Assembly (NCBI GenBank): GCA_019054805.1
Contig: JAHQIY010000001.1
Coordinates: 8,632,501-8,696,500, forward strand
Length of the DNA: 64,000 bases
Origin: Brachionus manjavacas
Lineage: Eukaryota; Rotifera; Eurotatoria; Ploima; Brachionidae
Direction: 5' to 3'
In this document: positions 13,134 through 56,273 of the stretch, in pieces
Position numbering within the stretch: position 1 is the stretch's first letter
How the letters are laid out: each line of letters begins with the position of its first letter
The notes under the pieces: generated by a model
Database searches by the model: none
What the model saw: only the letters and a program-made list of their open reading frames with translations
Told to the model about the DNA's origin: nothing
Translations under genes and position numbers: made by a program

Positions 13134-13348
13134 TATTCACTCCTTGTGGAGCATAGGGTCATTACTTTTGATTTCCACTAAAGTCGATCTTTTGCCTTTA
13201 CTCTTGCTTCTCCCCATATCATTCCCATTTTGATGAGCTCTTTCGTTATTGTTGACTTCTATGTCATTGCTGGTCGTCCTACCTTAATTTACCCTTGAGG
13301 TGTTCATTCAAGGGCTCTTTTCATTCTAATTACATGCCCAAATCATCG
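13134..13348 (-). pseudogene. LINE family B ORF C-terminus and 3' end
   Basis: The minus strand reads FGHVIRMKRAL, then GRPAMT and ITKELIKMGMIWGEARVKAK, then a CSTRSE-like end, with interspersed stops. This corresponds to the GHVLRM...GRP...W...A.DR tail found in the same RT family. It ends in AAGGAAAAAAA, the same 3' boundary as the short fragment at 3785-3836. Confidence 0.75.
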
Positions 13349-13349
13349 C

Positions 13350-13965
13350 AAGTCAGACAAGTGTGTTCTCTCTCCGACACTGTTCCTAATACTGATCGAC
13401 TATGTCATGAAGAAAACAACTGCCAGTGCTAGGAGTATACAATGGAGATTAATAGCAAAGCTTGAAGACTTATACTTTGCGGACGATATGGTGCTAATAT
13501 CTAATTCAGAAGCACATATGCATATGAAGACGCAAGAATTGGCGAACAACGCTAAACAAACCGGACTCGAAATAAATGGAGCCAAAACTAAAAGAGCATC
13601 AACACAAAATTGGATACCCCGATTACGATCGATGGTAAACAAAAGGAAATTCACATACTTAGGAAGCACCATCAGTAAAGCGATGGGAACACACAGAGAC
13701 ATTAAGAATAGCAAAGAGTGCTTCTGCTAGACTCCAACCAGCATGGAAATCAACCAGCTACAGCAAGGAAACAAAACTTAAACTGTAAAAACTGTAGTAG
13801 CTGATGTAAGGTTGCGAATGTTGGGGAATGTGTGAATCTGACAAGAAAAACCTGAACAACCTCTACACTGGAAGCCTGCCGAGGATCCTAGGGATACACT
13901 GCCCTGAGACATTTTCAAATGCTGACCTATACAAATCCAGAGCCATTAAGTCAGTGAATTAAGAA
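13350..13965 (+). pseudogene. LINE family B reverse transcriptase fragment (inverted block)
   Basis: Begins with a VRQ-like block and then SPTLFLILIDYVMKKTT, which are RT palm motifs. The catalytic YFADDMVLIS lies near 13470-13500, followed by a thumb region ending around 13710. After a frameshift near 13706 the reading continues as ASARLQPAWKSTSYS, then GCECWGMCESDKKN and LPRILGIHCPETFSNADLYK, interrupted by several stops. These blocks follow the order of a common LINE RT family whose proteins carry ECW and RILRI motifs here. The frameshifts and stops make it non-functional. Confidence 0.85.
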
Positions 13966-18544: not shown

Positions 18545-21500
18545 TTATTCAGATTTTCTGACTCGTTGAGAATGTAATCCAGTGTAAAATTTTGGAATAG
18601 AAGGATAATTATTCGACTGACTTTTTTCTGTTTCAATTTTAGTTTCAATCTTGTATCCAATAACAAATCCTTTGCGATAGTTTAGCGGTGTTAAATAGCA
18701 CAGCAGTTGCTTAGTACAAGGTGCTAGAATGTCTGTGGTTCTGCTTGCCAAGCGAGTTGATTCTAAATTTTTCGACTGACCTAAATCAATCGATACATTT
18801 ATAAATTTATCCTTGCTTAAATTTTCAACAACAACTCCATGGGTACACGAGCCCGGTATAACAGAAGTCATCAAATCTCCATCTAGCTCAACTCGAGTTT
18901 TATTTGCTTTTTTAGCTAAACTAAAAAATATATCTGCTATGCTTTCGGAAGCCAGACCAGTTTGGTTTAAACTGAACTTACATTCACCGTGAATAACCAA
19001 GTTGTAGGTATAAAAATTAGGATCCTCTGGGTTTAAATTTTTTTCCTCAAGTAAATTTGAAATTGCTTTTATAGATGTGGCAAAAATGATGTAGTATCCA
19101 CGCTTTAATTTACAGGACAAATTTATGAAATACTCTACATTGTGTTCGTAGGCTACACATGTTATACCACCTCCTTCTGCTGGTTCATTAAGGCGACAAA
19201 CTATAAGACACAGATCTATGTCAGGCTCATCGTTTCTGTCGAATCCCTCATTTTTGCGACCTGTGGAAAATAGTTCAAACTCGAACTGGTTTTCGTTCGA
19301 GTCCTGTACATTTATTAGGAAAACTTGAACACCATCCGAGTAGTCATAAAAGTAAGATGAATGTCTTGACTCGAACCAATCAGTTCGAACTTTACAAATT
19401 GATATATCATAAAAATATTTAAGCAGGTCTTCAAATGATATCCAAAAACAACCATCATTTTTTTGGTACACTCCGGCTATTTCACTGCGAATATTTTCAG
19501 GCCAATGTGGCCACTTGTTTGACCATGCCCCCTTCCACTCTTTTTTACCCCATGGATTTCCTTTATTAAAAATTTGAAATTTATATTTAGATAAAAAATT
19601 GAACTTTTGTATTAAAAAAATTTTCAAGAATTAAAGGTTCAAAAAGAAAAGATTAAAATTTTTTTTCTAGAAGTTAAAAGTTTGTTCTTTGAATGCACAA
19701 CCGACATTTTTCGATTATTTCTAGCATTTTGCTTGTGATTCCCAGAATTTTTCGACTTTTTTTCACCCAGATTCCTATTTTTCACTTCTAGAAATAAAGT
19801 TTATTTGTTCCTAAGTATTTTATTGTGGAACTCTAGTTTTTGAATCTAGATAAATCTAAATTTTATTTTTTTATTTTGCTTCTGGATTTTATATTTGAAT
19901 AAAGAAAATTAGAAATAATAATCTTTTAATTATTACAAGTGGTTGACTTATATCATGTTATAATACAATTTTAATTTTTCATACAAATTATTAATTTTAT
20001 TAAAAATTCAATTAAATATATCAAATAAAGTTAAATTTCTGCAGCTCCATGTTGTTAAGATTCCAGCTCTGTGAAGTTTATTTAACTTTATATGACTTTA
20101 CTTAAAACTTGTGGCTTAAAAGCAACTCTTCTTCTTTTTCCTACTGAAATTTTAATAGCTTATTCTTCCAATAAAATAAAATATGTATAATAATAAATTA
20201 CAAAATTACATCACAATTTTTACCCTGTCGAAATCGGTCCCCTTTTTTTAATGAAAGGAGTTTTAAAATTCGTCCCGTACTGCAGAGATATTTTGAAAAT
20301 TTTTTCACCCTCAGCGGATTTTGGACCGGCGATCCTCTGCTTGCATGACAAATACACAAACCATTCGACTATACGGGTTCGACTGGATAATAATTGCGGT
20401 TTAGGTGATCAACTTGATGCAGTAACCTTTTTGTCAGATCGGAGCCATTGCTCAAAAAGGTACTAGAAAAGGAGATGACCGCCTCCCCATTATCCACAAG
20501 GATAGAAAAGGGACAAATATTACAATAAAAAATGACAAACTATTAAATTGAATTTTAATTTAAACCATTCACAATAAATTTTTTGTGGGATTTAATTTAA
20601 CTTCTCAGCCCTTCACCAATGTTACATAATAAAAGACATAATGAAAAACAAGTAAAAAATTTTAGCTTTAAATCAAAACAACTATTAGGTTTTTAAACAG
20701 ATCTAACAATGCACGAAAAATTTGTTTTTGGTTTAAAAATATTTCTTTAAATTAAAGATTTATTGACAAAAAAAATTTTTGAGAGTTTTGTCAGGAACAT
20801 TTTTGCAGCCGATTACTAATTTAGCCATCAAAACCTGCTTCTAATTTTATTTCATTAAAAATATACTTTCTTCCATTATAAAAGCATGATTCAAATTTTT
20901 AAGTAATAATTATAGTCTAGTAACTATTTTAGTTTGCGTTTGATCTTAAAGATGCACCTAAATTTGCTTTAAAAAAAAAGGTTTGAAAGATTCAGGTGTT
21001 TTATGATCTTTCATATTCAAATTAAATTTAAAATAAAGCTAAATTTTAAAATGTAAAAGAAACTATATCGTATTTTAGGTAATGATTTTTACAGTTTTAT
21101 TTTATAAAAATTTCGCGAATTTGATAAAATTTGATTAGATTTTCCGGGGTTTTAATAATCTTAAATAAAATAGAAAAAGCTAAATAAGAGTAAACCAAAA
21201 TTCAAAAATCAAAGGCGAATTTGACAAATTTTACAGAAATTTTCATACAAACAAAAAGGAAATTATTAATTATTATTAAGAGCTGACTTTATTAATAGAA
21301 TAAAAATATTGTTAACTTTTTTTATAAATAAATCAGATTCAATTCAACACTAATTTTAAACCATCTCCTAATGCAGCCCTTAAGAAGCATGCTTATCCTC
21401 TTAAATAATAGATTAGTTATGAGTTTTATGAAAAATTGAAGTATGTTTATAACTATTGCGAATTCGTTAATCAATTTAGTAATTTAAAAATCAATAATCT

Positions 21501-22955
21501 AAATCTTTAATTTTTTCATCAACAACAAAGGTTTTTAGTTGACTTGTTTTATTTGACGGTACATCAATTAAGACTTATAAAATTAACCCAAACTAAAAAA
21601 AATCTTGATTATTTCATCTTCTTTGAACGAAAAAAAAAATTATTTTTCAAATTTTGAACTTGTTAAATTTCAATCACTTTAAAAATAGCTCGAGCATTTA
21701 TTCAACTAATTTTTTATTTTGCATTCTAACTCTAACCATAGCAGTCTTTAGTTTTAAATAAAATTTTGGTTTAAAAAAAAATAAAATAAAATTAAAAAAA
21801 AACAAAGATTTGAGTAAAACCAATTTCATCAAATTTAAAAAAAAACCCTTAATAAGAATAAGAATATTTTAAATTCCAAAAATTAATTTTAAACGCTTAC
21901 TTACTCAGTTTAATTAAATTGATTACTTTTCCGTCACTAACAAACTCTCTTACATCTAGTACAGAGTAAATATGTCTGTTGAAAAGTCCCACTTTGAACA
22001 TGTCAACGAAATTAAAATTTTTATTATAACAAAGAGTGGTCATTAGATATCCAGCACTCTTGCAGCATAAAAGTCTTTTCCAAAGATATCCAGGGTCATC
22101 ATCGGCAGCATCCTCGCTCGGTACATAATTCACTTTGTCATAATTTGCCTTAGTATCTTCTAAATAGACTATTTCGCATGGTTCACCGGTCAGAGTCTGT
22201 AAGCCTTCAACACACGCACCACTGGCTATAGACTCATAATTACCATAGAGTTTGGCCAATGCTTTTTCAATAAATGATACCCAAAATTGCCGCTTTCTAG
22301 CATATGCAAAAATTATTTTACCTCGCCTGTCGCAAGGTAGATAGTCATCAATATCCACTATTAACCACTTACCTCGTTTGCACAGTCTAATCTGATGCAA
22401 ACCATTCGGATTATAAAATTTTGTAATCAGAATATTAGACAATAGGTCCTTTCGCTCGGCTATGATAGATAAGGCGCTAATAAACCAGCAAGAACCAACA
22501 CCACCCTGGACAACATCTTTTGGTGAGCAACTCTCGTACAAACTAATCGCAAGGTTTCTTTCTTCTTTGGAGAATTTTATGTCGTCTGGTCTGAGCCATA
22601 TTTTTGCTCTGTTCAAACCACTGTTTTGTATTGCTTTTGATATAGGTAAAATTGATCTTTTGAGAAAAATTGAATGCTTGTTTGGCGGAAATTCTTGGTC
22701 AATAAAATGAATGTTTTTGTTTTTGTTAGAATTTGAATCTTTTGCCAAGGCTTTTCTAAAGTTTTCTAAGCGAACCTGAGACGATTTTTCCACTGCAAGT
22801 TGTTTTAACTTGAATTTTGATTTAGAAGGAGTCTTCAGATTGCCTTCTTCAACTTTATCGCCAGTGTATTTGTCTATTAGACATTTTCTGCAAAAATGTG
22901 TATCTTTCTGATTCGGAAAATTGCAGTATTCGCACTTCCAAATTTGGTTACCCAT
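18545..22955 (-). CDS. Calpain-15/SOL-type cysteine protease, two exons
   Basis: Join of 22955-21905 and 19560-18545 (2067 nt, 688 aa). The donor GTAAGTAAG follows CTGA; the acceptor AG precedes GAAATCC, restoring the family motif LRNPWG across the splice. Residues 6-25 form a RanBP2-type zinc finger (C8, C11, C22, C25). The calpain protease core spans roughly 118-420, with catalytic Cys156 in GGVGSCWFISAL, His328 in FNRHIYSVLDV, and Asn352 in RNPWG just after the intron. All three are present, so it should be an active calcium-type intracellular protease. The remainder matches the SOL-homology C-terminus typical of calpain-15 rather than a penta-EF-hand. It is shorter than vertebrate calpain-15, which has more zinc fingers. 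The start at 22955 is chosen because the zinc finger follows at once. Confidence 0.85.
20240..20385 (-). mobile_element. tRNA-like (SINE-head) sequence in the calpain intron
   Basis: On the minus strand TAGTCGAATGG (20371-20361) resembles an A box and GGTCCAAAATCC (20327-20316) a B box with one extra base. They are spaced as in a tRNA, and a CAT-containing anticodon-like loop lies between them. GC content stands out from the intron. The arms are imperfect, so I read it as a tRNA-derived SINE or pseudo-tRNA rather than a working gene. GC-richer flanks extend to about 20520. Confidence 0.4.
20520..21890. other. Remainder of the calpain intron
   Basis: AT-rich intronic sequence without recognised features, as is 19628-20230. 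Confidence 0.5.
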
Positions 22956-24160
22956 GAAAAAAATTGTCGGGTTTTTTTATTTGACAAAAATGGTAAACTT
23001 TGGAAAAAAAACTATAAGTGTCGAAAGATATAACTAAAATACTTAAATGAATAATAAAATAATAATTTTTTATGTACAACGAATATTGGATGCCACAGAG
23101 CCTTCGTTCGGCTTCATTTAGCAATTTACAATACTTTGAATTTTCCATAAAAGTATGTAATTATTTTTCATATTGCTAATTTGCTTGGAATTTTTAAACC
23201 ATTTACTTTAAACATTAATAATTTTAAATTTTAATTTTTTGAGTCATATTGAAACTAATTTTTTTTCTAAATTATTTAAATCACTTGGGATTTAAAATTA
23301 TTTTTTTTCAGTTGATTCGTGCTCGCTTTTAGAAATAGATTTTATTAACATATTGTGTACCTTTAGCTAAAAAATAAAAATATTGTAAGAATTTACCTTT
23401 ATTTCAATTATAACCATTAACCAATTTATGTTTGATTAGGAATTGTTCAAGAGGATTCTAATAAAATTCACAAAATAATAATATTCTTTTAATTCAAATA
23501 TTTTTTTAAATTTAATAACCTTACACTTTAATGTAATTTACATCTTTCTAGTTTTTAGAATTTACATAATCGAGTTTAAAAGTAATTTAATTATTTTACC
23601 TGATTTTATTTTTCTTTTAATTAAATTAATATTTTGATTAAAATTGCTCGGTTTTTGATGAAAACAACAATAAAAAATTCAATTAAAAATGTTTATTAAT
23701 TTGATAACATTTTGTTGCACTTTTTTCTTGTGTAAAAATTGGTTATAATTTTGTTTCCATCTCTTTGTAGATATAAGAAATATTTTTTAAATTAATAAAT
23801 TTAAAATCTTGGTATTTCAAAAGTATCTTTTCATTTAGCATAAATCAAAATGAAAATATCATACATTACTGATTTAATGGAAAAAAAAATTTCGAATAAA
23901 TTTAAGAGGATTTTTTTCAGCATTAATTTTCTTGTTTAATTGATCTTATTATATGAATTGATTAAGATCAGGAGAAAAGAACAGGTAATTAGGCAATTTT
24001 TAATTGAATTTTATTTACAATTAGTTAGAAACTTGAAAATCAAATTATTCCAGGAATATTTTTTTTGGATTTTTTCAAATCTGATTTATTTACTTAATCA
24101 TATGAAATATTTAAAGCAAATTAAATTAAATTTTTAAAAAATCAAAAAGCGATAGAAAAT
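22956..24160. other. Intergenic stretch between calpain-like and ATP-grasp/TauD genes
   Basis: Should hold the calpain promoter. A minus-strand ORF at 23148-22948 begins MENSKYCKLLNEAERRLC and could be a 5' exon, but no convincing splice site links it to the zinc-finger exon. Nothing else recognised. Confidence 0.35.
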
Positions 24161-27100
24161 TTATGATTTTAATCTATTATTTAGATAATCAAATCTTATT
24201 CTTACAAAATGTCTATTTTGGTCGAATATTTTAGTTCTTCCATGCAAAAATCTTGAATTATCCATTAATAATATCTGTCCTTCTTTCATATTAAAATAAT
24301 GAATCAAATTGCTCTCTTCTAAATTAATTAACCGTTCAAATTTTTTCAAAGCCTCAATGTACTTGTCACCCAATTCATCTTCATTTAGTATTATATCATG
24401 TCTATACCTTACTAAAATCTCTCCGAATTTTCTGAATAAAATGCTTCCATAAATAAAATCTTCGGTCATATTTTCTCTTTTAAATTCTTGCGGTATCTTA
24501 ATTTTTACTTTAACACTAGCCAGGAGATCAATTTCATTTTGGGTTAATTCTTCGAGAATATTCTGAAGTTTGACTACTAAATTTTGGCCTCCATTGAGTC
24601 TATCACTGCATAAACATTCCAAAGCAAAATAACGTGCAGGATTTAAATCGTAGCTAGCATCCGTATGCATTTGAAAAATTTCATCGGTATGTGACCGTGG
24701 AGCTGCTGGTCCTGATAGAAAGGGTTTTATGTCCCAAATATAGTCACGATCCTTGTTTCCATGAGAGCGAGGCTGCATATTCAGTGATTGTAACAGCGAC
24801 ATTAAAAAGTTGGAACCAGTATCTTCAAATTTGAGTTCCAGTAAGACGAATCCATGCTTTAAAAGTGAATTTAGATACAAATCAGCATCCTTGAAGCTGA
24901 ATGAATCGATTTGATAAAAACTTTCTTGGTTTATTAAAAATGGTTTGTGGTTGAAATAGACACCAGAAACATTTGAAATTTTCATCAATAGGTCTGGTTG
25001 AACTGAGGGATAGAGAATTAGTCCTACTTGACTAAGAGAAACAAGATCTTTTTTAGAGGCTCTGTATATTCCTGGACAATAGAATGTGTCATTAAGGCAT
25101 AAAAGAGTGCCTACTATGTAACAATTTTTGATACTTTTTAAAAAAAAAATTTTTTGTTCAATATATTCCTGGATGACAAAATTCTGCTCTAAATTATCAA
25201 CAACTTTAATCCATTTTTCGACGCTAACATTCTTTCCTAATACAATTCCTTGACATTTTCCGAGAGAAGTTGGCTTGACTATCCACTTTTGTTTGTTTGT
25301 TTTTACGTGACAGTCTTTGGAGAGTATTTGTTTGTTTAAAAGAGTGTTTATTCGGTGTTTACGAATAGTTTTATGATTTTCAATGCTCATATAATCAAAT
25401 AAAATATCATCTCTGGACAATATGTGCAAAAAACGTTTATCATGAATCAGAAATATTGTCCGAAAATCGTTTAGCAACTTACAATATTGGATCATGTGAG
25501 CTACTATATGCTCAGAAATATTGAGAATTTCGTTTTGATGAAGTTCGAGAATAAACTGATTGACAAAAATTTTTCCATTATTGTTTGAATAAAAAAATAA
25601 TTTATTTGATTCAAATTTTAAATCCTTCGGGTTAACATAAAAAATATTTTCGAAAAATTCTTTTAATAAATTGATATCAAAGCCTTTCTGTGAAAAATTT
25701 TAAAAATTTTTTTATTCATTTTTTGAAAAATTTTACTCTATTTTAAATTTAAAATATTTTATAGACTTTTTAGCAGTAAATTTATTAATTAAAAAAATTA
25801 ATCACAAAGACCTTAAAATTTTGGTCTTGGATAACCGGGTCTAGTCAAAGGGGTTTCAGGTGATAACATAATATGCTATCATTTTGTACCATAACGGTTA
25901 TGTTAACATCCTGATAAATAAATTTTAATCAGCGTTTTATGTTATAAAACTTATAAATACAACTAAATAAGATGTTATAATTTTTCTCAATAATGCTATC
26001 ATCTTGTCAATTTTAAAATCAAATAATATTTAAAAAAGGCTTTTTCAAAAAAGTTTATTTGAATCTTTTTAAAACGAAACATATCCTAAATTATAAGAAT
26101 ATTAATTCTAATTATTTTTTTTATGTGTGCGTGACATGTGTAAAATAACCCTAAATAAATTTTGTGCTCATCAGTAAGTTAAAATCTAATAATAAAATAA
26201 AATCTTTTCTTTTTAATTTTTTAATTTTTTTGAATCATTATTAACGAAATCAATATAAAAAAATTCCTCTAAAATATTTTTAAAATCCCCATAACTATTT
26301 TAAATAAAAGATCAAAAGGAAAAAAAAAATTTACATAAAAAATAGGAAATTTTATCAAAGGTTAATTTTTGTCATCATCTTTGATAACAAAAAACGCTGA
26401 TATCAAATTATTATTATTATTATTTTTATTATTAGTTATCAGGATGTTAGCATAACTGTTATGGTACCAAATATACTCGGGAATTTGAATGCATAGAATC
26501 ACAGTGTTGATTTGACATGACGGTCGACGGTAATTTTACATCAAATTACTAACGTATTGATTTTACGTAATATAAGGTAAAACAATATTATTTTACATAA
26601 AATTACTATCGACCATCATTTCAAATCAATACTGTATCAAAGTCAGTTATCAAATTTAATTTTTCTAAATTAGATTAACTAAGATTTTCTGGGAGATATT
26701 TAAGAAACCATTAAGATGGAGAATCAGAGAAGTTTTACAAATGGTTAATAAAAAAAGATTAAAATGATTTTTCAGAATTTAACTGAAACAAAAAAGTTAA
26801 ATACCTAAAATGTAATAATCAAAGTCAATAACTAAATATTCAATTAATGAATGTGATCTTGCCCTAAAATATCTATATTTGAGAAAAATATAAAAAAAGA
26901 CTAGAGTTCCCATATTATTAGTATTGGACGGACCTAACCGGCTCATTTGTTGAATATTTTCGATCTAATGATTGTTCCACTTAGCGATCAAAACTTGATG
27001 AACGATCATCAGTGCGATCATAGCTTAATCCGATCTAAAAAATTAATGCTTTAAGATTTGGTGCCAATTTTTGCCTAGCACAAAAATAGATTAATTTTTA

Positions 27101-30100
27101 GCATAAAATTATTTAATCTATTGTTAAGATATTTTTTATTAAAGAAAATTTAAATGGTCAAAAAATATTGAATTAGATTTCGTTGATGGCTACTTGGCCC
27201 TATTGAAAAAAAAAATACATGAATTATCAAAGTTGGTATTTAAAATCATCAGAGATATTATGACAGAAAATAGCACACCGTTTCTGATAACAGGAACCGT
27301 TCAAGTCAAAATTGGTTCAAAATTCGGTTATTCAAAAATTCAAAAATAGCCAAAAATTGGTTAACCATAAATTTGGTTTATAGACTTTATTTTTAGTTAT
27401 TCAAATTTAATTCAAGACGAAAACATCTGTTAATTTTTTCTGTTAGACGTTTTTGGTCTAAGGTTGTTTATTTATTTATTTAAAAAAAATTTAGGGGTGA
27501 CCCCAGGGCACGTCCGAATGGTTCAAGACCTTCGTTTGAACCCGCATTAAGAGAAAAATTGATATAAAAATTTAGATGATCGAATAAAATTGGATAAAAA
27601 TAAAGGTTGTTTATAATTGTAACTAAAATTAAAGAGATCTGATTTGTATCGGTAATTTTAACATTAATTAATTTTCGAAGCTAACCCGATAGCATAAAAA
27701 ATCTGTACTGAGTTTTTTTTGATCAAAACGAATTGGCTTGTTTTGTCTTCTACAAAATTCTGTTGGACTTTTCATTAAACAATTTCTTTGAGTAAAACAA
27801 TACATGCTGGCTATCAACTTTGGGACCGAAGAAATGTCAAAAAAATTTTTTGAAAAGATAATGTTTATTTATGAAAATAAAGTCATTTTAGATTAAATTA
27901 AGATATATTAATTTAGCACACGAAATTAAACATATTCCTTTTCAAATTAAAATTTTATTTTTATTTTTTTAATTTTGTAAATTTTTTTATAAATTTAATC
28001 ATCAAGAATCCTTTTCAATAGACCATTAAAATCAGTTATTTTTTTATTAAATAAGAATTTATTTGAATAATTAAAATCGAAACTAAAATCTACAGAAAAA
28101 ATTTTTTAACTTAATATTTGGCTTACCAATTTTCGGCTAACCGAATTTCTAAAGTAACCAGGTTTATAGCAAGATGGAAACTGAGAGGGGCTCCTCTTTT
28201 TTGTGCATTTTAAACCATATCTCTATTTATAGTATAAATAAAACAATTGTTTTTTTAACAATTAATGTGGAAAAATCTAAGATTAAAACTAATATAAATG
28301 AGATACCAGCGGATTTAAATGAAAATTTTTAACTGGACCAAAATTTTGGATATAGGTGAAAAAATTGTAATAAAAATAAGTGTTTTTTAATATTTTCTTT
28401 ATCATCGCCGGGTCTGGATTTATTTTTGAAAAAATGAATTAATTGAAAATTGAGATACAATTTTGGTTTACGTTTTCAGGAAGATAATAAAGCATGCAAG
28501 CTGAAAAAAGGATCTTTTACCGTTCCGTACTTTCAAAGGTATATGTCTTTATTATTTTAAAATAAACAAATGACGAAATTGTAAGTATTTTTGTTTCTAA
28601 ATGATCACAGATGAATTAAAATTTTTTATTTCTATAATCTTTTGGATTTAAACATATCTAATTTTTAAAATAGATTTAAAAAAATATAAATCGTTATTGA
28701 ATTATTTGATTCATTATTTGATTAATTATTTGATTCAGAAATTTACTAAGTACGGATAGTTTTTAAAATTTCGTTTAAATATAATCCTTCCCAAAAAAAA
28801 TGTTTTCATTCTCCCGTTTCATCTGTCCTATTTCTGTTATCTCCATTTTTCCGTGGAATACTAAAAGTATATTTAGTCAAGTGTGAAAAGTTTTAGTTAA
28901 TATAAGCCAAAAAATAACAATGACATTTGGATATTGATTATGGTTGTAAAAGTATTTAGAGTTGTAAAAACATAATTTTTTAAAATTTTAATTTACTTCT
29001 TTGTCTTTAAGGATACAAACTGGCTGATTAAAATCAAAATAGCTTTTGTAATCATCTATAAAATGGCTGGTTGTTGGTAGCTTTTTAGACGATTGTTTCT
29101 TATTTGATTCAAATTCTTTTCCAAAAAATGTTATCAGATAACCATTTGTTGGAAATCTGGCATTAATTTCACATATTTTTACTGTTCCAGTTTTATCTTC
29201 GTACAAAAAATCAGGTCTATCAAAAAAAAAATTGAAATTTTATTTTTTTAATTAATATAATCAAGTTAGACATTTCAATTGTATGTTAGTTCTTCTAGAG
29301 ACTAAATTTGATCGGGCTGATTTTTCTCGTTCAAAAAAATCAACACTTAATATTCTTAAATCTGAATTGAATACCTTGTCAAGTATTTTAGTATTATTAT
29401 ATTTTTATGTTTAGCAATTTTTTGATTTTTTTTAATCTAATTAATTTAAATTACAGTTTTTTCTGATGATTATTAGCAAAATTTTCCCTTTATGAAAAAC
29501 CCTAAATTTTAGTGTTTTTTTTTCAAAATTGGAATAGATTAGGATACACTAAAACATCATCAAGGCTTGAGTTTAAGACACAAAATAAAAAAAAAATAAT
29601 AAAAAATTATTTTTTCAAATATTTTATTTTCTTAATCATTGGTGCTGCACCAAATGCATAATAAAAAAAACTTTTTATTTTTTGTCTTAAACTCAAGTCT
29701 TGATAAAGCATTAAATAAAGAATTCCAGAATTTGGTGCGGCTCCAAACCCGTGATAATACTATGGATCATGCGTTTTTAATCAAAAATATTTTAGCATGG
29801 GCGAGATTTACTCTAATGCATGGTCAAAAATCGTGTTTTAGCTTGTGCTGCTAAATAATAGGACGGGGGAATACGGTAATATGTTTTTGACTTTATCCGA
29901 ATTGATTTTAATTAGATTATTTAGAATTAATAGAATGGTAATTTCTTACCTATATGCCCCAATATTTATGTATGGCCTATCTTTGTATTGATCGAGAATT
30001 CTCTTTACTTTATCAGGAAATTGGTACACATCTCTGATTCGCGAGTCAAATCTAAAATTTTGAACAACACATTTTATTATTGACTCTAACGCTATGTGAA

Positions 30101-30298
30101 TTTCCTTGTAACATTTTAATTCTGATTCTGTGATTACAAACGAATAAGGATAAACTGATTGCTTGTCAACATAATTAAATAAATTTTTGCATTTTTTTTC
30201 CAAAAAATTTATCATTTCATCTCTTGACTCCTCCATTTCTTTTGAAAAAAAATCCATTTGTTTAAATCGAATTCTATCGTTGTTTATAATGCTCACTT
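24161..30298 (-). CDS. Circularly permuted ATP-grasp ligase fused to TauD/TfdA dioxygenase (5' incomplete)
   Basis: Three exons: 30298-29950, 29216-28997, 25687-24161, joined at clean GT/AG sites with matching phases. Upstream exon(s) are missing because 30298 follows an acceptor (poly-T then AG). Exon 2 carries CEINARFPTNGYLITFFG, like the metal-binding EYNADTPT box of glutathionylspermidine-synthase-type ATP-grasps. Exon 3 then has WIVKPTSLGKCQGIVLG and FVIQEYIEQ, the nucleotide-binding part. This order is that of circularly permuted ATP-grasps. The second half is a 2-oxoglutarate/Fe(II) oxygenase: HTD (H at 24667) in MHTDASYDLNPARYFALE, GGQNLVV, then the distal His in SRFLHGRTK and Arg in RHFVRIRF near the C-terminus. 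Such enzymes hydroxylate small molecules while ATP-grasp ligases make amide bonds; the substrate is unknown. Possible horizontal transfer. Confidence 0.75.
25884..26470. mobile_element. MITE-like element in the ATP-grasp/TauD intron
   Basis: Left end TTGTACCATAACGGTTATG and right end (reverse complement) TTGGTACCATAACAGTTATG, both continuing with AACATCCTGATAA and further inside with ATCAGCGTTTT. There is no coding capacity. About 587 bp with imperfect TIRs of roughly 70 bp. Confidence 0.7.
26501..26635. mobile_element. Small foldback element
   Basis: The left arm ACAGTGTTGATTTGACATGA pairs with the reverse complement of the right end, ACAGTATTGATTTGAAATGA. Both continue with GGTCGA-GTAATTTTA. 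Arms are about 41 bp around a 53-bp centre. Confidence 0.7.
26636..28996. other. Rest of the long intron of the ATP-grasp/TauD gene
   Basis: AT-rich sequence with a LINE-like 3' end at 27463-27545. The 3' part (from about 28736) is homologous to 36984 onward. Confidence 0.5.
27463..27545 (-). mobile_element. Retroelement 3' end with GGGGTCACCCC hairpin and AAAT tail
   Basis: On the minus strand a GC-rich block with GTCTTGAACCATTCGGACG ends in GGGGTCACCCC, then an AT-rich run and AAATAAATAAATAAA. It shares the hairpin-plus-tail layout of the LINE 3' ends in this window but not their sequence. Confidence 0.5.
29562..29705. repeat. Inverted-repeat insertion in intron
   Basis: AAGGCTTGAGTTTAAGACAC at the left pairs with GTCTTAAACTCAAGTCTTGA at the right. 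Between them lies a palindromic ATTGGTGC-T-GCACCAA. The duplicated locus at 37.6 kb lacks this segment. Confidence 0.6.
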
Positions 30299-31909: not shown

Positions 31910-32341
31910 TTAAAAAAAATTTAAAGACAAGGTTCTGACTTTTGACCAACAATGGAGTCTAGAATTTATTTTTAGTTATTTTTATCACATAGTAATTGAT
32001 TATGTTTGGCGTAGAGACTGATGTTGTAATTTGTCAATGTGTTGTTTGTGATGATTATTTGCTAAGTGGATCTAAAGAAGCTACTATAAAATATTGAAAT
32101 TGTGGAATCTAGATGCAGGAGAGTACTAAAAAACTTAATCGATCATAAAAATGTAATTTATGAAAGACTTATATTTTATGCTGATACTAAATTTATTTTT
32201 CTTCTACTAAAAAAAAAATAAAAATAATTCTAAAATTCCCACTTAAGAATTCCCAATTGAAATGATACTTATTTTGTTTATGTTATACTAATATTTTTTT
32301 TAATTGGTATCAAATAATTAATCAAATAAATATAGTAATTA
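31910..32341. other. Gene-free gap upstream of the SWIM relic
   Basis: AT-rich, with a short CQCVVCDDYLLSG reading at about 32030-32065 that could be part of the same decayed transposon; not assigned. Confidence 0.3.
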
Positions 32342-32800
32342 GATGTAGTTATTCCTAAGAAAATCGACGAAGCTAGATCGTACCTAACCCCTGTTCCATC
32401 TAAATTTTCACACAAAAAACAGTTGGATAAGGAAGACATTAGAAGCTACAAAAACATGTTTAATTTGTCTGAGATCTCCAATTATCAGTCGTGGCTCAAA
32501 GAAGTTAGTAAAATTTGGACAATCAAATTGAATGATGCTGAATGGAGAAAGAGTACGTGTACTTGTCCCTTTTGGAAAAAAAACTATATGTGCAAACATT
32601 TAGTAGCTATTACTTGTCGCGATAGAGGTATGCCATCGAAACAAAAAGAAAACAGAAACAGAAATGGGTGAAAACAGAAAGAAAGGAAGGCCTGCGAAGA
32701 ATAAAGATGCTCTTTACCGCCAGCCGATCGAAACTCTAAGTCATTTAGAAAATGAAGTGGCCGAAGACGAACTTTCGTCATTATTGAATTCGAATTTTTT
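32342..32800 (+). pseudogene. SWIM zinc-finger relic, probably from a MULE-type transposase
   Basis: The frame reads from DVVIPKKIDEARSYLTPVPS through SWLKEVSKIWTIKL to a SWIM finger CTCPFWKKNYMCKHLVAI (CxC...CxH). After a frameshift near 32660 it continues as KKGRPAKNKDALYRQ. SWIM fingers followed by a GRPxK basic stretch form the C-terminus of MULE-related transposases in many animal genomes. The frameshift and lack of a catalytic core mark it as a remnant. A host SWIM protein exon is the alternative. Confidence 0.6.
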
Positions 32801-36983: not shown

Positions 36984-38030
36984 TTCAGAAATTTACAAAG
37001 TGCGGATAGTTTTTAGAATTTAATTTATAAATAAACCCATCAATAAAAATTATTATCATTATATCGTTTGTATCTGGCCCATTCTTTTTTACTTCATTTT
37101 ACATTAGAATTCTCAAAGGATATTCAAGTGTAAAACGTCTTTAAAAATGAAATTTTATATTTTTTAATTAATATAATCAAAGTTAGACATTTCAGTTGTA
37201 TGTAAGTATAATAATGGGTTAAGCTTTATAAAAAAAATTTCAATTCTAGATAGAGTTAAAAATAGAATCATCAAATATCAAAATTGTTTTTGAGAGCAAT
37301 TTTTTTTTAAATATTTGATTTATGAAATTAATTTCAATTTCATTTTAGAATTTTTCTTCTAGGGACCAAATTTGATCAGGCTAATTTTTCTCGCTCAAAA
37401 AAATCAACACTTAATATTCTTAAATCTGAATTGAATACCTTGTCAAGTATTTTAGTATTATTATATTTTTATGTTTAGCAATTTTTGGATCTTTAATCTA
37501 ATTAATTTAAATTATAGTTATTTTCTGATGATTCTTAGAAAAAATTTCCCTTGATGAAAAATCCTAAATTTTAGTGTGTTTTTTTTCAAAATCGGAATAG
37601 ATTAGGCTACACTAGAATAAGTTTGAATGATAAGCTTAAGAATTTTCTTTACTTTATCAGGAAATCGGTACACATCTCTGATTCGCGAGTCAAATTTTGA
37701 CAACACATTTTATTATTGATTCTAACGCTATTTGAATTTCCTAGTAATATTTAAATTTTGATTCTTTGATTATAAACGAATAAGTATAAATTTATCTCTT
37801 GTCAACATAATTAAATGAATTTTTACTTTTTTCCTCAAAAATTTCATTCCTTGACTCCTCCATTTCCTTTGAAAATTAATCCATTTGTTTAAATCGAATT
37901 CTATCGTTGTTTATAATGCTCACTTCTAAAAAAAAAATGAACTGTTAATAAAAGCTTTTTTTTTTTAAATTTTTTTGAAATACACAGCAATTTATCAATT
38001 AATTTTATTGTGCATTCAAAATCATGTAAT
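36984..38030 (-). pseudogene. Decayed duplicate of the 5' part of the ATP-grasp/TauD gene
   Basis: Aligns colinearly to about 28736-30400. It shares TTTACNAAGTNCGGATAGTT (36990 vs 28742), the intron block TTAATATTCTTAAATCTGAA (about 37408 vs 29346), and the first known exon from CTTTACTTTATCAGGAAAT to GCTCACTTCTAAAAAAAA (37648-37933). Exon 28997-29216 is deleted, the splice-donor side of the first exon is missing, and stops and indels break the rest, so it is a pseudogene. It lies only about 200 bp from the end of the first opsin gene. Confidence 0.75.
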
Positions 38031-38226
38031 AAAGTAATTCACAAATAAATTTTTAAATAATTTAAGTTAAAATAAAATCTATTTAATTAAATTTAATGCA
38101 AATTTATAAGAAAAAAAAAATCAAAAGGCAAACAAATAACTAAATCATCAAATGCCTCATTTTTAAATGCCGCAAATTTGCTTTCCGATAAATGTTCTTG
38201 TTACCTTGAAAAGAATAATTAAAAAT

Positions 38227-39355
38227 TTATTCTAAAATTTTTTGAAATACATTACATGAATTAATTCGCCTCTTTCTTTTGGTCTTAAATAATTTCAAAA
38301 CAAGACGTTTTATATTAGAACTTGAGAAAATGTACAAAACTGAAGGCCAAAGCATGGATGACTTGGCAAATAGCGAAGGTAAAGTAGCGACTAGAGGTGA
38401 CACACCCGATGGATTAACAAAAGCCGTGTACATAGATGTAATGGCATATGGAGTCCATGATATAATGAAACCAATTATTATCAAAATCATAACAACAGTG
38501 GAATTTCTTTCTATAATTATGCGACGGCTTTCTATGGTATTCTTTTTTTTCAGTATTTGTTGAAGACCTCGGATCATAAATATCAACTTGAAATTGACCC
38601 GAATAATGGCCATTAATGGAATAAAGTAAACAAGTAAAAATACAGTTACATTATAGCTGATGACATTTAGGCTACGGTCTTTCCACTCAACACTACACGA
38701 TGTCAATGCTCCTTCTAGAGAATAGTAGGACCAACCCATTATTGGCAACACTGACCAAATTAAAGCAAGCAAGGCACAAATCAATATGGACAAATAAGTT
38801 GTTTGAATTTTGACTTTGGAAACTCCAAATGGATTTTTTATAATGTGATACCTAATTTTTTTTAATTTACATTTTAATATGTAAAATTTTTTAATTTAAA
38901 TTAAACCTTTCAAAAGAAATTGCCATCATCAAATAAATGCTCAAACATCCTACAAAATACATCACAAATCCGCTGAATACGCAGCCAATGTAGCGAAAAA
39001 CCCATCTTATTTAGAAAATATTATAATCTAAATGTTTATTTTTTTTAATTTGACCCTATGCAGAAAAAAAGCCGTGAAAAAAAAAAAAAAATTGATTTTA
39101 CTTGCATGCAAATTTACTTGCAATAATGAAAGGAAATTCTAGAATTGAGCCGACCAAATTCGAAATGGTAAGAGCTATTATGAAGACATTTATTGGTGAG
39201 CGTAGATTTTTGTATTTTAGAAACACCCATAGAAGTATTGAGTTGAATATCACGCACAGAGCAAAAAGTAAAGTGGCAAGCGCTCCGATTATTCGTAGAT
39301 TAGTGCATTTAACCGGAGAATTTTTCATAAAATCATATTCAGTAAAATTCAGCAT
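38227..39355 (-). CDS. Opsin 1 (retinal-binding GPCR), three exons
   Basis: Join of 39355-39102, 39005-38907, 38851-38227 (978 nt, 325 aa); introns are 96 and 55 bp with GT/AG ends. It is a seven-helix light-sensing receptor of the plasma membrane. Helix 3 begins with Cys93, expected to pair with Cys170 in GALTSCSVEW. The DRY-equivalent is ERY (117-119), reconstituted across intron 2. Helix 6 has ISWTPYA. Lys281 in LFAKSSMLW is the retinal Schiff-base lysine, so it is an opsin, not just any GPCR. The NPxxY motif of helix 7 reads PSVLY. Glu173 in CSVEW sits where many opsins have a counter-ion. The opsin class (xenopsin, peropsin or other) needs a tree. The C-tail is short and basic. A paralogue lies at 54-56 kb. 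Confidence 0.9.
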
Positions 39356-54071: not shown

Positions 54072-56273
54072 TTAATCTATAAAATTACCTCTACTCATCG
54101 ATACTTCGTCTTGATCTTTCTTTTCATAGAATAGCCCCATTGTTAGTTTTACTCTGATTTGTTTATTGGAAAAAATGTACAAAATAGCACTCCATACAAG
54201 GGTTGATTTGGCAAACATGGCTGGAAGGGTTCCTGCTAATGGTGGCAAGTCATCTCCAATAAATGAACTGTAAAGTGATACCATTGCATAAGGCGTCCAA
54301 CTTATTACAAAGCCCACTTTTTTTAAATGATTATTTATTTAACATTAAAAATGACAATTTTTTGAACTATTGAAAATTAAATTGAAATATTTCAGTTGGA
54401 AATTGATTTTTTTAATAAAAATTAATGAACCTATAAATTTACACTAATGGTTTTTATTGAAGATTAATGATCAAATTAGTCAAAGTTTTAAAAAAAAAAT
54501 CTTTGACTAATTTGAAAAAGATTAATTTTTGTATTTTTTATGTTCAAAAGTTAGTTCCAATTTTTAGAAGAATAAAAAAGCTTTAAAAAAATCAGAAAGA
54601 ATGGAAAATTTTTTTTTTTTAATCAAAAAAAAATCTTGAGCATTTTATCAATAAAAATAATTTAATCCTTTAAGGGAGTAATTGATGGTTTAGGACTAAA
54701 AAACATTAAATGAATCTTAAAAAATTTTCAAATTAGAATATTAATCGGTTTAATTATACTGTTAGATTTCACTTAGATTTGGGGAAGATAAGTTCCTTTC
54801 AAACTGATCACTTCAATTCAGATAAATTTAAATATTTTTTTTATATAAGAAATAAATTAGTCTTAACAACTTGAAAAATTTTCTGCACCCATAAAAACAG
54901 ATGCCTGCAAAAATTCCCTGTATTTTTCACGGCGTTAACAATTATTCTGATCAAATTCGCAAAAAATAAGCTTTTGATTTTGTTATAGGTTGAATCAAAA
55001 ATGTTACTATTATGTTATAACAATTTTAAGACTTATTTATTGTTTATAAATAAAAAATTATTTAAATTTTGCAAGATTGAAGGAACCTCACTTCCGAACG
55101 TAGACTAAAAATAAATATATATATATAACTTATTTATATATATTTAGAAAAATTAAAATTTTTAATTTTATTAATGTAGTTTTGCTTAAATTTTACTCTC
55201 TTAAATGATTTAAAATTTACAATTTTCCTTCATAAGTTAATGTTATGAAATTGACTCTTTCAATTTTCTTAAGTTCGTATCTACCGAAATTTAAGCAAAA
55301 ATAAAAATTTTTAATTCTGAATTACCAACTAAAAATATCATGATTACAGTCAAATTTCTTTCCATTTGCAACCTTTTTTTAGCCTTTTCATCTTGGGCAT
55401 CTTTGGTCATGTTAGGCAGATTTCGAATCTAATTTTTTTTTTAGATTAGTTTTAAATGAAAAAAATCTAAAATTACAATAATGACAAGTTTAATATTGGC
55501 AAAAAATATGATAATTAAGGGAATTATGTAGACCACGAAAAACATTGTCACATTATAACTTATTACATTAAATGATCTTTCGAACCATTCGACACTACAA
55601 CTCGTAAGAGCACCTTCAAGAGAATAATATGACCATCCTAAATAGGGAAACATTGCCCACATAACACCCATAAATGTACAAACAGCAATCACAACTAAGA
55701 TAACATTTGTGCTGATACTTTTGATGCTCATAGGCTTATAGATGATGAAAAATCTCTCAAATGAGATGGCAGCCATCAAATAAATTTGAATAGTACCCAC
55801 GATGTACATTATTACTCCACTAAAGTGGCATCCTACTTTTCCAAATGGCCATCTTCAAAAATTAAAATTAATTTTTCCAATATATGACATCTTTTCACTC
55901 TCTTTTAATTTTTTTAAATTGTTTTCATTTAAAAAATCTAAAAAAGTGAAAAATTGCCATTTATAAAATCTAACCTGCAGCTGAAATTGCTGATGATAAC
56001 AAATGGAAGTTCAATCACTGAAGCAGCTAGATTGTATGCAGTCAATGCTATTATTAGCATATTTAGTGAAGTTCTTAGTTCTTTGTATCTGTAAAAAACC
56101 CATAACAGTAATGAGTTGAAAAACACGCTTGATAAAAGCAACAGGACACAATATACTGCAATTCCATTTAGAATAATACAATTGACCGGTGATTTCATGT
56201 TCCATTTATCAATATGATGGTTGATGCTGGTCGAAAAGTTTGAATAATCTTCGATCATTTTTTCAAAATTCAA
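54072..56273 (-). CDS. Opsin 2 (retinal-binding GPCR), four exons
   Basis: Join of 56273-55975, 55852-55477, 55428-55326, 54316-54072 (1023 nt, 340 aa), all GT/AG; introns are 122, 48 and 1009 bp. The first intron has the same phase and place as in opsin 1. The intron inside the ERY codon of opsin 1 is absent here, and two later introns are present instead. Helix 3 starts with the disulfide Cys in VGCHFSG, followed by ISFERF in place of ERY. The second loop GWSYYSLEGALTSCSVEW is identical to opsin 1. Helix 6 has VISWTPYA. Lys296 in MFAKSTLVW is the retinal lysine. NPxxY is replaced by SAILY. Two Asn-linked glycosylation-type sites (NFS, NHH region) lie before helix 1. Probably a light receptor or retinal photoisomerase. 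Confidence 0.88.

Follow-up and report, generated by a model that had tools for sequence, protein, structure and literature searches.

A predicted fusion of a Cp1B-type ATP-grasp ligase with a TauD-type oxygenase in an animal genome

In the window (the whole stretch of DNA analyzed here, 64,000 nucleotides from the rotifer Brachionus manjavacas), we identified a gene consisting of three minus-strand exons (30257-29950, 29216-28997 and 25687-24161) that, once spliced, encode a 684-residue protein. A circularly permuted ATP-grasp ligase (residues 1-404; the nearest solved structure in a PDB search is Cp1B, the fungal E-64 ligase) is followed in this protein by a TauD-type Fe(II)/2-oxoglutarate oxygenase with intact iron ligands (residues 405-684). 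Judged by its sequence, the animal gene is a bacterial-type TauD/ligase cassette fused in the order B-A. With a probability that we put at roughly 60%, it encodes a bifunctional enzyme in which the ligase (B) precedes the oxygenase (A) and which comes from an E-64-type cassette and makes an epoxysuccinyl-amino acid. The animal carries relatives of two enzymes that serve the synthesis of E-64-like inhibitors in fungi and some bacteria, and hence may build such an inhibitor itself. The initial annotation, namely a permuted ATP-grasp fused to a TauD-type oxygenase in an intron-containing gene on an animal contig, is borne out by the PDB, Pfam and profile matches.

The E-64-type pathway was described in 2025 in fungi and cyanobacteria (PMC12568646). 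Cp1A and the bacterial MfaA convert fumarate to trans-epoxysuccinate, which is then coupled to L-amino acids by Cp1B, and E-64 is a standard tool and a drug lead against papain-type proteases, calpains and cathepsins (PMC12568646). What had been taken for an undescribed system is therefore one of an already known type, whereas the fusion and the animal host appear to be new.

A PDB search with the joined protein retrieved Cp1B (9CJN) with an E-value of 4.7e-19, in two segments (residues 33-199 and 217-398) that together touch all three exons; the identity between the animal ligase and Cp1B is 24-29%. A profile of eight bacterial relatives, from which the animal protein and Cp1B were excluded, finds Cp1B at 8.7e-58 (the runner-up is at 0.0055). 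The E-N motif read earlier in the middle exon (CEINARFPTNGY) is present, with E119-I-N121 (29162..29170, minus strand) aligned to E163 and N165 of Cp1B. Altogether, R103, D105, E119 and N121 of the animal protein correspond to R139, D141, E163 and N165 of Cp1B and are identical also in all eight full-length bacterial relatives; alanine at any of these four Cp1B positions abolishes or weakens activity (PMC12568646). The nucleotide-binding segment KPTSLGKCQGI (25244..25276, minus strand) lies in the 3' exon, as reported, and contains a Cys (loop GKC) at the position of a Gly (GKG) in Cp1B and in all eight full-length bacterial rows.

Exon 3 also matches Pfam TTL, an ATP-grasp family (22.2 bits, cut-off 20.1), over 111 residues within the shared ATP-grasp core (profile positions 7-108 of 292), and the relation of the ligase to Cp1B is far stronger than that to TTL. 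The assignment to the glutathionylspermidine-synthase type has to be revised: the nearest characterized protein is Cp1B, an enzyme of E-64 biosynthesis with a glutathione-synthetase-like fold, and the Pfam GspS/CP_ATPgrasp models gave no match at E-values up to 1 when the three exon ORFs were scanned separately (the Aquarickettsia relative reaches 20.3 bits with CP_ATPgrasp_2, under the cut-off of 32). The structure prediction that had been advised as a check was informative in part. Exon 3 modelled alone (mean pLDDT 65.2) folds well in the oxygenase half only, so the ligase fold was examined on a bacterial relative, the predicted model of which (pLDDT 84.8) has Cp1B as its top fold match (TM 0.76); Cp1B is absent among the matches listed for the exon-3 model, which we count as no evidence. 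On the strength of the sequence relationship, the ATP-grasp half can be assigned to the Cp1B family.

For the second half, the suggested profile search proved productive, with exon 3 matching Pfam TauD at 2.6e-15. The HTD...H...R series noted in the 3' exon corresponds to a TauD fold with HxD...H and a C-terminal Arg: the iron ligands are H517-T-D519 (24659..24667) and H658 (24242..24244), and the invariant R668 (24212..24214) is, like R672, which is likewise invariant in the rows compared, a candidate for 2-oxoglutarate binding (all on the minus strand). R507 of an 'RS' motif (24695..24697, minus strand) is an Arg in the animal protein and in 9 of 9 cassette TauDs, as against none of the 10 other TauDs compared; located close to the iron motif, it would suit a carboxylate substrate. 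The profile matches of the cassette-type TauD group include glutarate 2-hydroxylase, a dicarboxylate enzyme, and the nearest folds of the oxygenase half include hydroxylases, e.g., gamma-butyrobetaine hydroxylase and CsiD. Two nearly invariant TauD positions are altered in the animal protein (a conserved D to K and a conserved P to A). Identity with the ordinary animal TMLD/BBOX oxygenases of the carnitine pathway was considered and rejected (44.7 bits against an NCBIfam equivalog cut-off of 268.3 for TMLD, and 32.3 against 414.75 for BBOX).

In all 11 bacterial genomes in which we found the ligase family, the ligase gene has a TauD gene of the animal's kind next to it or close by, and seven of these genomes also have an adenylating enzyme (ANL) (5 of the 11 TauDs and 4 of the 7 ANLs were used to build the profiles, the remainder being independent matches); this combination matches the Cp1A/B/D layout. 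The hosts are Obscuribacterales, Vibrio ostreicida, Ca. Aquarickettsia rohweri, a Midichloriaceae bacterium and further Gammaproteobacteria; we take the Vibrio and the rickettsia-like bacteria to be animal-associated. A transporter gene is located close to some cassettes (EamA at loci L013 and L014, MatE at L016). Ligase loci at 1e-20 were found in 2 of 262 genomes of the Aquarickettsia order, 1 of 197 of the Vibrio ostreicida family, 5 of 53 of the Obscuribacter order and 4 of 369 of the class to which the Vibrio belongs, all genome-sample counts including the seed genomes. With the animal TauD half as the sole query, these genomes again come out on top (4 of 369 Gammaproteobacteria, 5 of 53 Obscuribacterales); among the 369, the best four score 73-115 bits, the next independent locus scores 37 bits, and six genomes pass 1e-6. 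Both halves of the protein score best against the bacterial cassettes among the sequences compared.

Other searches were less productive. The joined protein as a single query gave no match in the genome contigs, from which the Cp1B-animal alignment recovered at least five loci out of 595 pattern matches. Eight of 386 Cyanobacteriota genomes matched at 1e-10, one of these being Obscuribacter itself; in the other seven, the eight loci are weak (42-58 bits) and were dropped because the profile found no TauD in the 3-15 kb retrieved around them. The mfa cluster of Microcoleus was not among the loci recovered. The 15 plasmid records detected by tblastn matched the TauD half only, the four neighborhoods inspected contained no such ligase by profile, and the viral contigs searched gave no match.

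The kinship with bacterial cassettes and fungal Cp1B is in line with the amide-forming small-molecule pathway that was proposed at the outset. We consider it most likely that the fused enzyme epoxidizes fumarate or succinate and couples the product to an amino acid, yielding the core of a cysteine protease inhibitor, with the substrate and product as we infer them here. Using Fe(II), O2 and 2-oxoglutarate, the TauD half would desaturate and/or epoxidize a C4 dicarboxylate (succinate or fumarate) to trans-epoxysuccinate; the ATP-grasp half would phosphorylate one carboxylate and link it, through the amino group, to an L-amino acid that is probably hydrophobic. The expected oxidation is epoxidation of the free dicarboxylate instead of hydroxylation of the finished amide, as had been suggested. 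The two steps would yield an epoxysuccinyl-amino acid, which is the thiol-reactive core of E-64 and might act on the animal's own cysteine proteases or on those of food, parasites or microbes; the fusion would keep the reactive intermediate local. That this single enzyme, by epoxidation and amide coupling of fumarate or succinate, provides the animal with its own irreversible E-64-like cysteine protease inhibitor against parasites, predators or microbes is a more tentative proposal, to which we give somewhat less than even odds.

Alternatively, the same fused enzyme might catalyze other chemistry, in which a different acid or a pseudodipeptide is hydroxylated or desaturated and the product is a non-epoxide acyl-amino acid, not a protease inhibitor. 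Cp1B is promiscuous and in the absence of Cp1A yields fumaryl and malyl products in vivo (PMC12568646), so that the acyl partner of the animal ligase is not readable from sequence; many Cp1B homologs belong to other fungal clusters (PMC12568646), and the long-branch changes and hydroxylase-like nearest folds of the TauD half point in the same direction. We nevertheless regard this alternative as rather unlikely, given the invariable TauD-ligase pairing in the bacterial genomes, which with the ANL genes reproduces the cp1/mfa cluster layout, and R507, which would suit a carboxylate.

A longer animal pathway, in which a further adenylating enzyme attaches an amine and thereby completes an E-64-like compound, is suggested by the ANL gene or domain in most of the bacterial cassettes, fused with the ligase in one ORF in Aquarickettsia. 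However, two ANL queries, run without a positive control, found no Cp1D-like adenylating enzyme in the animal genome, and the window contains no convincing ANL (best E-value 0.15). Furthermore, no ANL was detected by profile at bacterial locus L053, with more than 6 kb fetched on either side, so a two-enzyme form of the cassette seems to exist (at L040, where none was found either, the contig ends 1 kb past the ligase). We accordingly deem the longer pathway improbable and retain the two-step enzyme as the preferred reading.

Exon 1 (29950..30257) begins with an ATG at 30257, the likely start codon, and covers codons 1-102 plus two bases of codon 103, the N-terminal part of the ATP-grasp. Intron 1 (29217..29949, 733 bp; donor G^GTAAG, acceptor TTTTTTGATAG^) is followed by exon 2 (28997..29216; last base of codon 103 to codon 176), with the RPD and E-x-N active-site residues, and by intron 2 (25688..28996, 3309 bp; donor GAA^GTAAAT, acceptor TTTTTCACAG^). 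Exon 3 (24161..25687; codons 177-684 and the stop) contains the C-terminal half of the ligase (25004..25687) and the entire TauD/TfdA domain (24197..24874), all on the minus strand. In alignment with the bacterial relatives, this codon lies close to their N-termini, and the coding region therefore appears to be complete; base 30298 is preceded by an upstream acceptor-like 'ag'. Exons 1, 2 and 3 score 51, 62 and 200 bits against an ATP-grasp profile built from bacteria only, compared with 342 bits for the joined protein (at most 6.8 bits in 200 shuffles), which supports the exon join independently of RNA; exon 3 additionally scores 184 bits with the cassette-TauD profile. In tblastn searches with eight bacterial ligases, segments stop at 29949, one base beyond exon 1, in five of the six queries reaching it, open at 29218, two bases before exon 2, in 7 of 8 and match its end at 28997 exactly in 4 of 8; for the start of exon 3, three queries begin within 9 bases, four further inside, and one extends 105 bases into the intron. 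Exon 1 and the flank upstream of it occur a second time (37639..38032, minus strand; 365 of 412 aligned columns identical, 21 gaps), in a decayed copy that is not a working gene: it has three in-frame stops within the protein match at 37693-37884, whereas the main copy stays open. That the main gene is itself a relic, or not one transcript, its halves no longer cooperating, is very improbable: the Cys in the nucleotide loop and the decay of such a copy nearby favor this view, but 684 codons are open across three exons, the metal and acyl-phosphate residues are intact, the 512-codon frame of exon 3 by itself joins the ligase end to the complete oxygenase, the exons are richer in GC than the introns, and codon usage shows a correlation of 0.85 with that of three other frames in the window.

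The gene has introns and a composition like that of its host, and the contig around it is of animal type. Its neighbors are two rhodopsin-family 7tm frames, a calpain and a FAM124 domain, by which the genome is recognized as animal. We infer that the gene entered the animal lineage by horizontal transfer, from a donor that could be bacterial, fungal or other, since the trees give the animal row no stable position. In the ligase tree, the animal protein branches between the groups (AU tests for the two bacterial groups: p = 0.28 and 0.35), and its pairing with Cp1B is supported at only 63/56. The 17-row TauD tree joins it to the Pseudomonadota cassettes at 82/76, a grouping that disappears when three same-genome TauDs are removed; with long branches, AU tests of this half reject neither the non-cassette (p = 0.256) nor the cassette-group placement (p = 0.30). 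The relatives of the enzyme that we found are the bacterial cassettes and fungal Cp1B.

If the animal does make its own inhibitor with this enzyme, a pathway so far known from fungi and a few bacteria would gain its first member from an animal, and E-64 warhead chemistry inside an animal would represent a new kind of animal chemical defense. The vague label 'foreign gene' gives way to a reaction that can be tested directly, with substrates that are known and an assay that has been published, and the fusion itself may offer a compact biocatalyst that makes epoxysuccinyl-amino acids with one enzyme. The bacterial cassettes would extend the range of the pathway (fungi and cyanobacteria in PMC12568646) to a Vibrio and rickettsia-like bacteria. 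Among the papers listed in our literature searches, which covered few subscription papers and preprints, none describes this gene or an epoxysuccinate pathway in animals.

Among known systems, Cp1B/Cp2B of Aspergillus flavus (9CJN; PMC12568646) resembles the animal protein in homology over most of the ligase, in the identical R/D/E/N residues and in the permuted order with E-x-N ahead of the nucleotide loop; the animal protein differs in the oxygenase fusion, the animal host and GKC for GKG. Cp1A and the cyanobacterial MfaA are Fe(II)/2-oxoglutarate oxygenases acting upstream of a Cp1B-type ligase (PMC12568646), and their likeness to the animal oxygenase lies in the gene pairing (fused in the animal, next to or near each other in bacteria). 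The bacterial cassettes consist of separate genes, with TauD before or after the ligase and often an ANL, in contrast to the single B-A gene of the animal. Eukaryotic (homo)glutathione synthetase and GspS/YgiC/YjfC share the permuted ATP-grasp fold, and tubulin-tyrosine ligase shares the ATP-grasp fold, but in each case the sequence relation is weak and the substrates differ. The horizontally acquired PKS/NRPS clusters of rotifers (PMC11258130) are another example of foreign biosynthetic genes in small animals; they comprise other enzyme classes, and the abstract of that report does not name an E-64-type pathway.

The gene consists of three minus-strand exons (30257-29950, 29216-28997 and 25687-24161) that are joined at GT-AG junctions and splice in frame to a protein of 684 residues. 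The initial annotation had placed an E-x-N motif in the middle exon and a nucleotide-binding loop, followed by the oxygenase, in the last one, and this arrangement holds on the minus strand. Exon 3 is a single open frame of 512 codons that encompasses the end of the ligase and the whole oxygenase, so the fusion of these two parts is independent of splice prediction. The profile used for exon joining was built from eight bacterial ligases only; against it, exons 1, 2 and 3 score 51, 62 and 200 bits, respectively, and the spliced protein reaches 342 bits in one alignment versus 312 for the sum of the exons, with 200 shuffled controls at or below 6.8 bits. With eight bacterial ligases as tblastn queries, the matching segments agree with the end of exon 1 in five of six cases and with the start of exon 2 in seven of eight, and the fit is poorer at the end of exon 2 (4/8 exact) and the start of exon 3 (3/8 within 9 bases). 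The first methionine, at 30257, falls close to the position where the bacterial proteins begin. Taken by homology, these comparisons support the assignment of the three exons to one gene.

Among solved structures, the best match of the joined protein (4.7e-19) is Cp1B, the Aspergillus flavus ligase of E-64 biosynthesis. The match falls into two segments, residues 33-199 and residues 217-398, which between them touch all three exons. A bacterial ligase profile with neither animal nor Cp1B rows recovers Cp1B at 8.7e-58, with no other match below 0.005. The predicted model of one bacterial relative (pLDDT 84.8, pTM 0.86) likewise has Cp1B as its best fold match (E 8.8e-23, TM 0.76), followed by eukaryotic glutathione synthetases and, lower, by GspS, YjfC and YgiC. 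These synthetases and the three lower matches are permuted ATP-grasps, so the earlier description of the ligase as circularly permuted is of the correct type. The score of exon 3 likewise exceeds the cut-off of Pfam TTL, but across about one third of the TTL model. All four Cp1B residues probed by mutation in PMC12568646 are conserved in the animal ligase, in which the four side-chain-pocket positions are hydrophobic (I, F, I, L).

The oxygenase half is a TauD domain (2.6e-15) in which the HxD, H and Arg of the active site are intact. Structure comparison places its predicted fold near γ-butyrobetaine hydroxylase and the dicarboxylate enzyme CsiD; it scores far below the cut-offs for the animal carnitine enzymes. 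A profile of eight cassette TauDs, that is, bacterial TauDs encoded together with a Cp1B-like ligase, gives the animal oxygenase 187 bits, compared with at best 107 for plasmid TauDs (n=4) and 57 for other TauDs of the same genome (n=3). Immediately ahead of the iron motif, R507 is Arg in the animal protein and in 9/9 cassette TauDs, and in none of the ten other TauDs compared.

At least five bacterial loci were among the matches listed from the alignment search, and genome searches brought the ligase family to 11 genomes in total. A TauD of the same type adjoins or is near the ligase in all 11, and in 10 both lie within one short gene run; at L055, the TauD is about 2 kb from the ligase, with mostly masked sequence between them. 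The TauD frame is interrupted at L015 and L054, and the ligase frame at L055. A PaaK-like adenylating (ANL) gene or domain is present in seven genomes (L013-L016, L038, L039 and L055); it was not found at L017, where the contig stops within the ligase, at L040, where it stops 1 kb beyond the ligase, at L054, where the adjoining sequence is masked, or at L053, with more than 6 kb fetched on each side. Profile building used the initial five TauDs and four ANLs; the remaining matches are independent. When the animal TauD half was the sole query, ligase-bearing genomes ranked top in both samples: among 369 Gammaproteobacteria, 6 passed 1e-6 and the best four were ligase bearers (73-115 bits; next independent locus, 37), and the 5 of 53 Obscuribacterales recovered were the same five as in the ligase search. 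The pairing, together with this ranking, implies that the two animal halves correspond to two co-travelling bacterial genes.

According to PMC12568646, the oxygenase Cp1A epoxidizes fumarate to (2S,3S)-trans-epoxysuccinate and also desaturates succinate, Cp1B joins trans-epoxysuccinate to hydrophobic L-amino acids, releasing ADP, and the amide synthetase Cp1D adds an amine; MfaA, a cyanobacterial homologue, yields the same epoxide as Cp1A. The homology, the intact active sites and the gene pairing are direct observations; from the family and the pairing we infer the substrate, product and biological use of the animal enzyme, which would most likely produce an epoxysuccinyl-amino acid within a single protein. 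As two queries found no Cp1D partner in the animal genome, the pseudodipeptide could be the end product. Counted against an epoxysuccinyl product are the replacement of one glycine of the nucleotide loop by Cys, the alteration of two nearly invariant TauD positions, the long branches of both halves, neither of whose trees names a donor, and the promiscuity of Cp1B described in PMC12568646.

Contamination is unlikely given the GC content (0.29-0.30 in exons versus 0.24 in introns) and the codon use (correlation of 0.85 with three other frames of the window); the window lies within a 12.1-Mb contig of the 114-Mb genome. The distribution of the family suggests that the gene was probably acquired horizontally. 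Exon 1 has a decayed, stop-containing copy at 37639-38032, and a genome search limited to scoring its top candidates detected no further copies at E 0.1. By eye, intron 2 contains, at 25890-26470, two inverted segments of roughly 30 bases each (TACCATAAC...CTGATAA), about 550 bp apart, that look like a small mobile element. Directly downstream of the fusion gene, a calpain-type cysteine protease is encoded on the minus strand at 18545-22976 (PF00648, 3.8e-49, GSCWF present); the frame 18545-19630 also matches the C-terminal portion (1.4e-15). Calpains are a target class of E-64 (PMC12568646), so this location is suggestive, though probably due to chance. Upstream, two minus-strand frames of the rhodopsin 7tm family (38227-38895 and 55441-55854; 3.5e-15 and 6.9e-19) share the segment GWSYYSLEGALTSCSVEW and, by eye, are opsins. 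The plus-strand SWIM zinc-finger (32339-32671, PF04434) and reverse-transcriptase (13299-13730, PF00078) frames are probably transposon remains.

Elsewhere in the animal genome, a 742-codon open frame on the minus strand of C2 (L001, 1492-3720) combines iron-containing heme-oxygenase-like, methyltransferase and TauD domains and is a candidate for a further foreign biosynthetic fusion. Three TauD-family genes (L002-L004), each a single stop-free open frame across the match, are clustered at about 2639000-2645000 of C7.

Among the bacterial loci, L053 looks like a two-gene form without a Cp1D-type partner, and in the Midichloriaceae bacterium (L017) a decarboxylase is absent directly upstream. 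In Ca. Aquarickettsia rohweri (L016, 4416-10471), the gene order is pyridoxal-dependent decarboxylase, TauD, an ORF in which the Cp1B-like ligase is fused to an AMP-binding enzyme, and MATE transporter, a row that resembles the four-gene cp1 layout.
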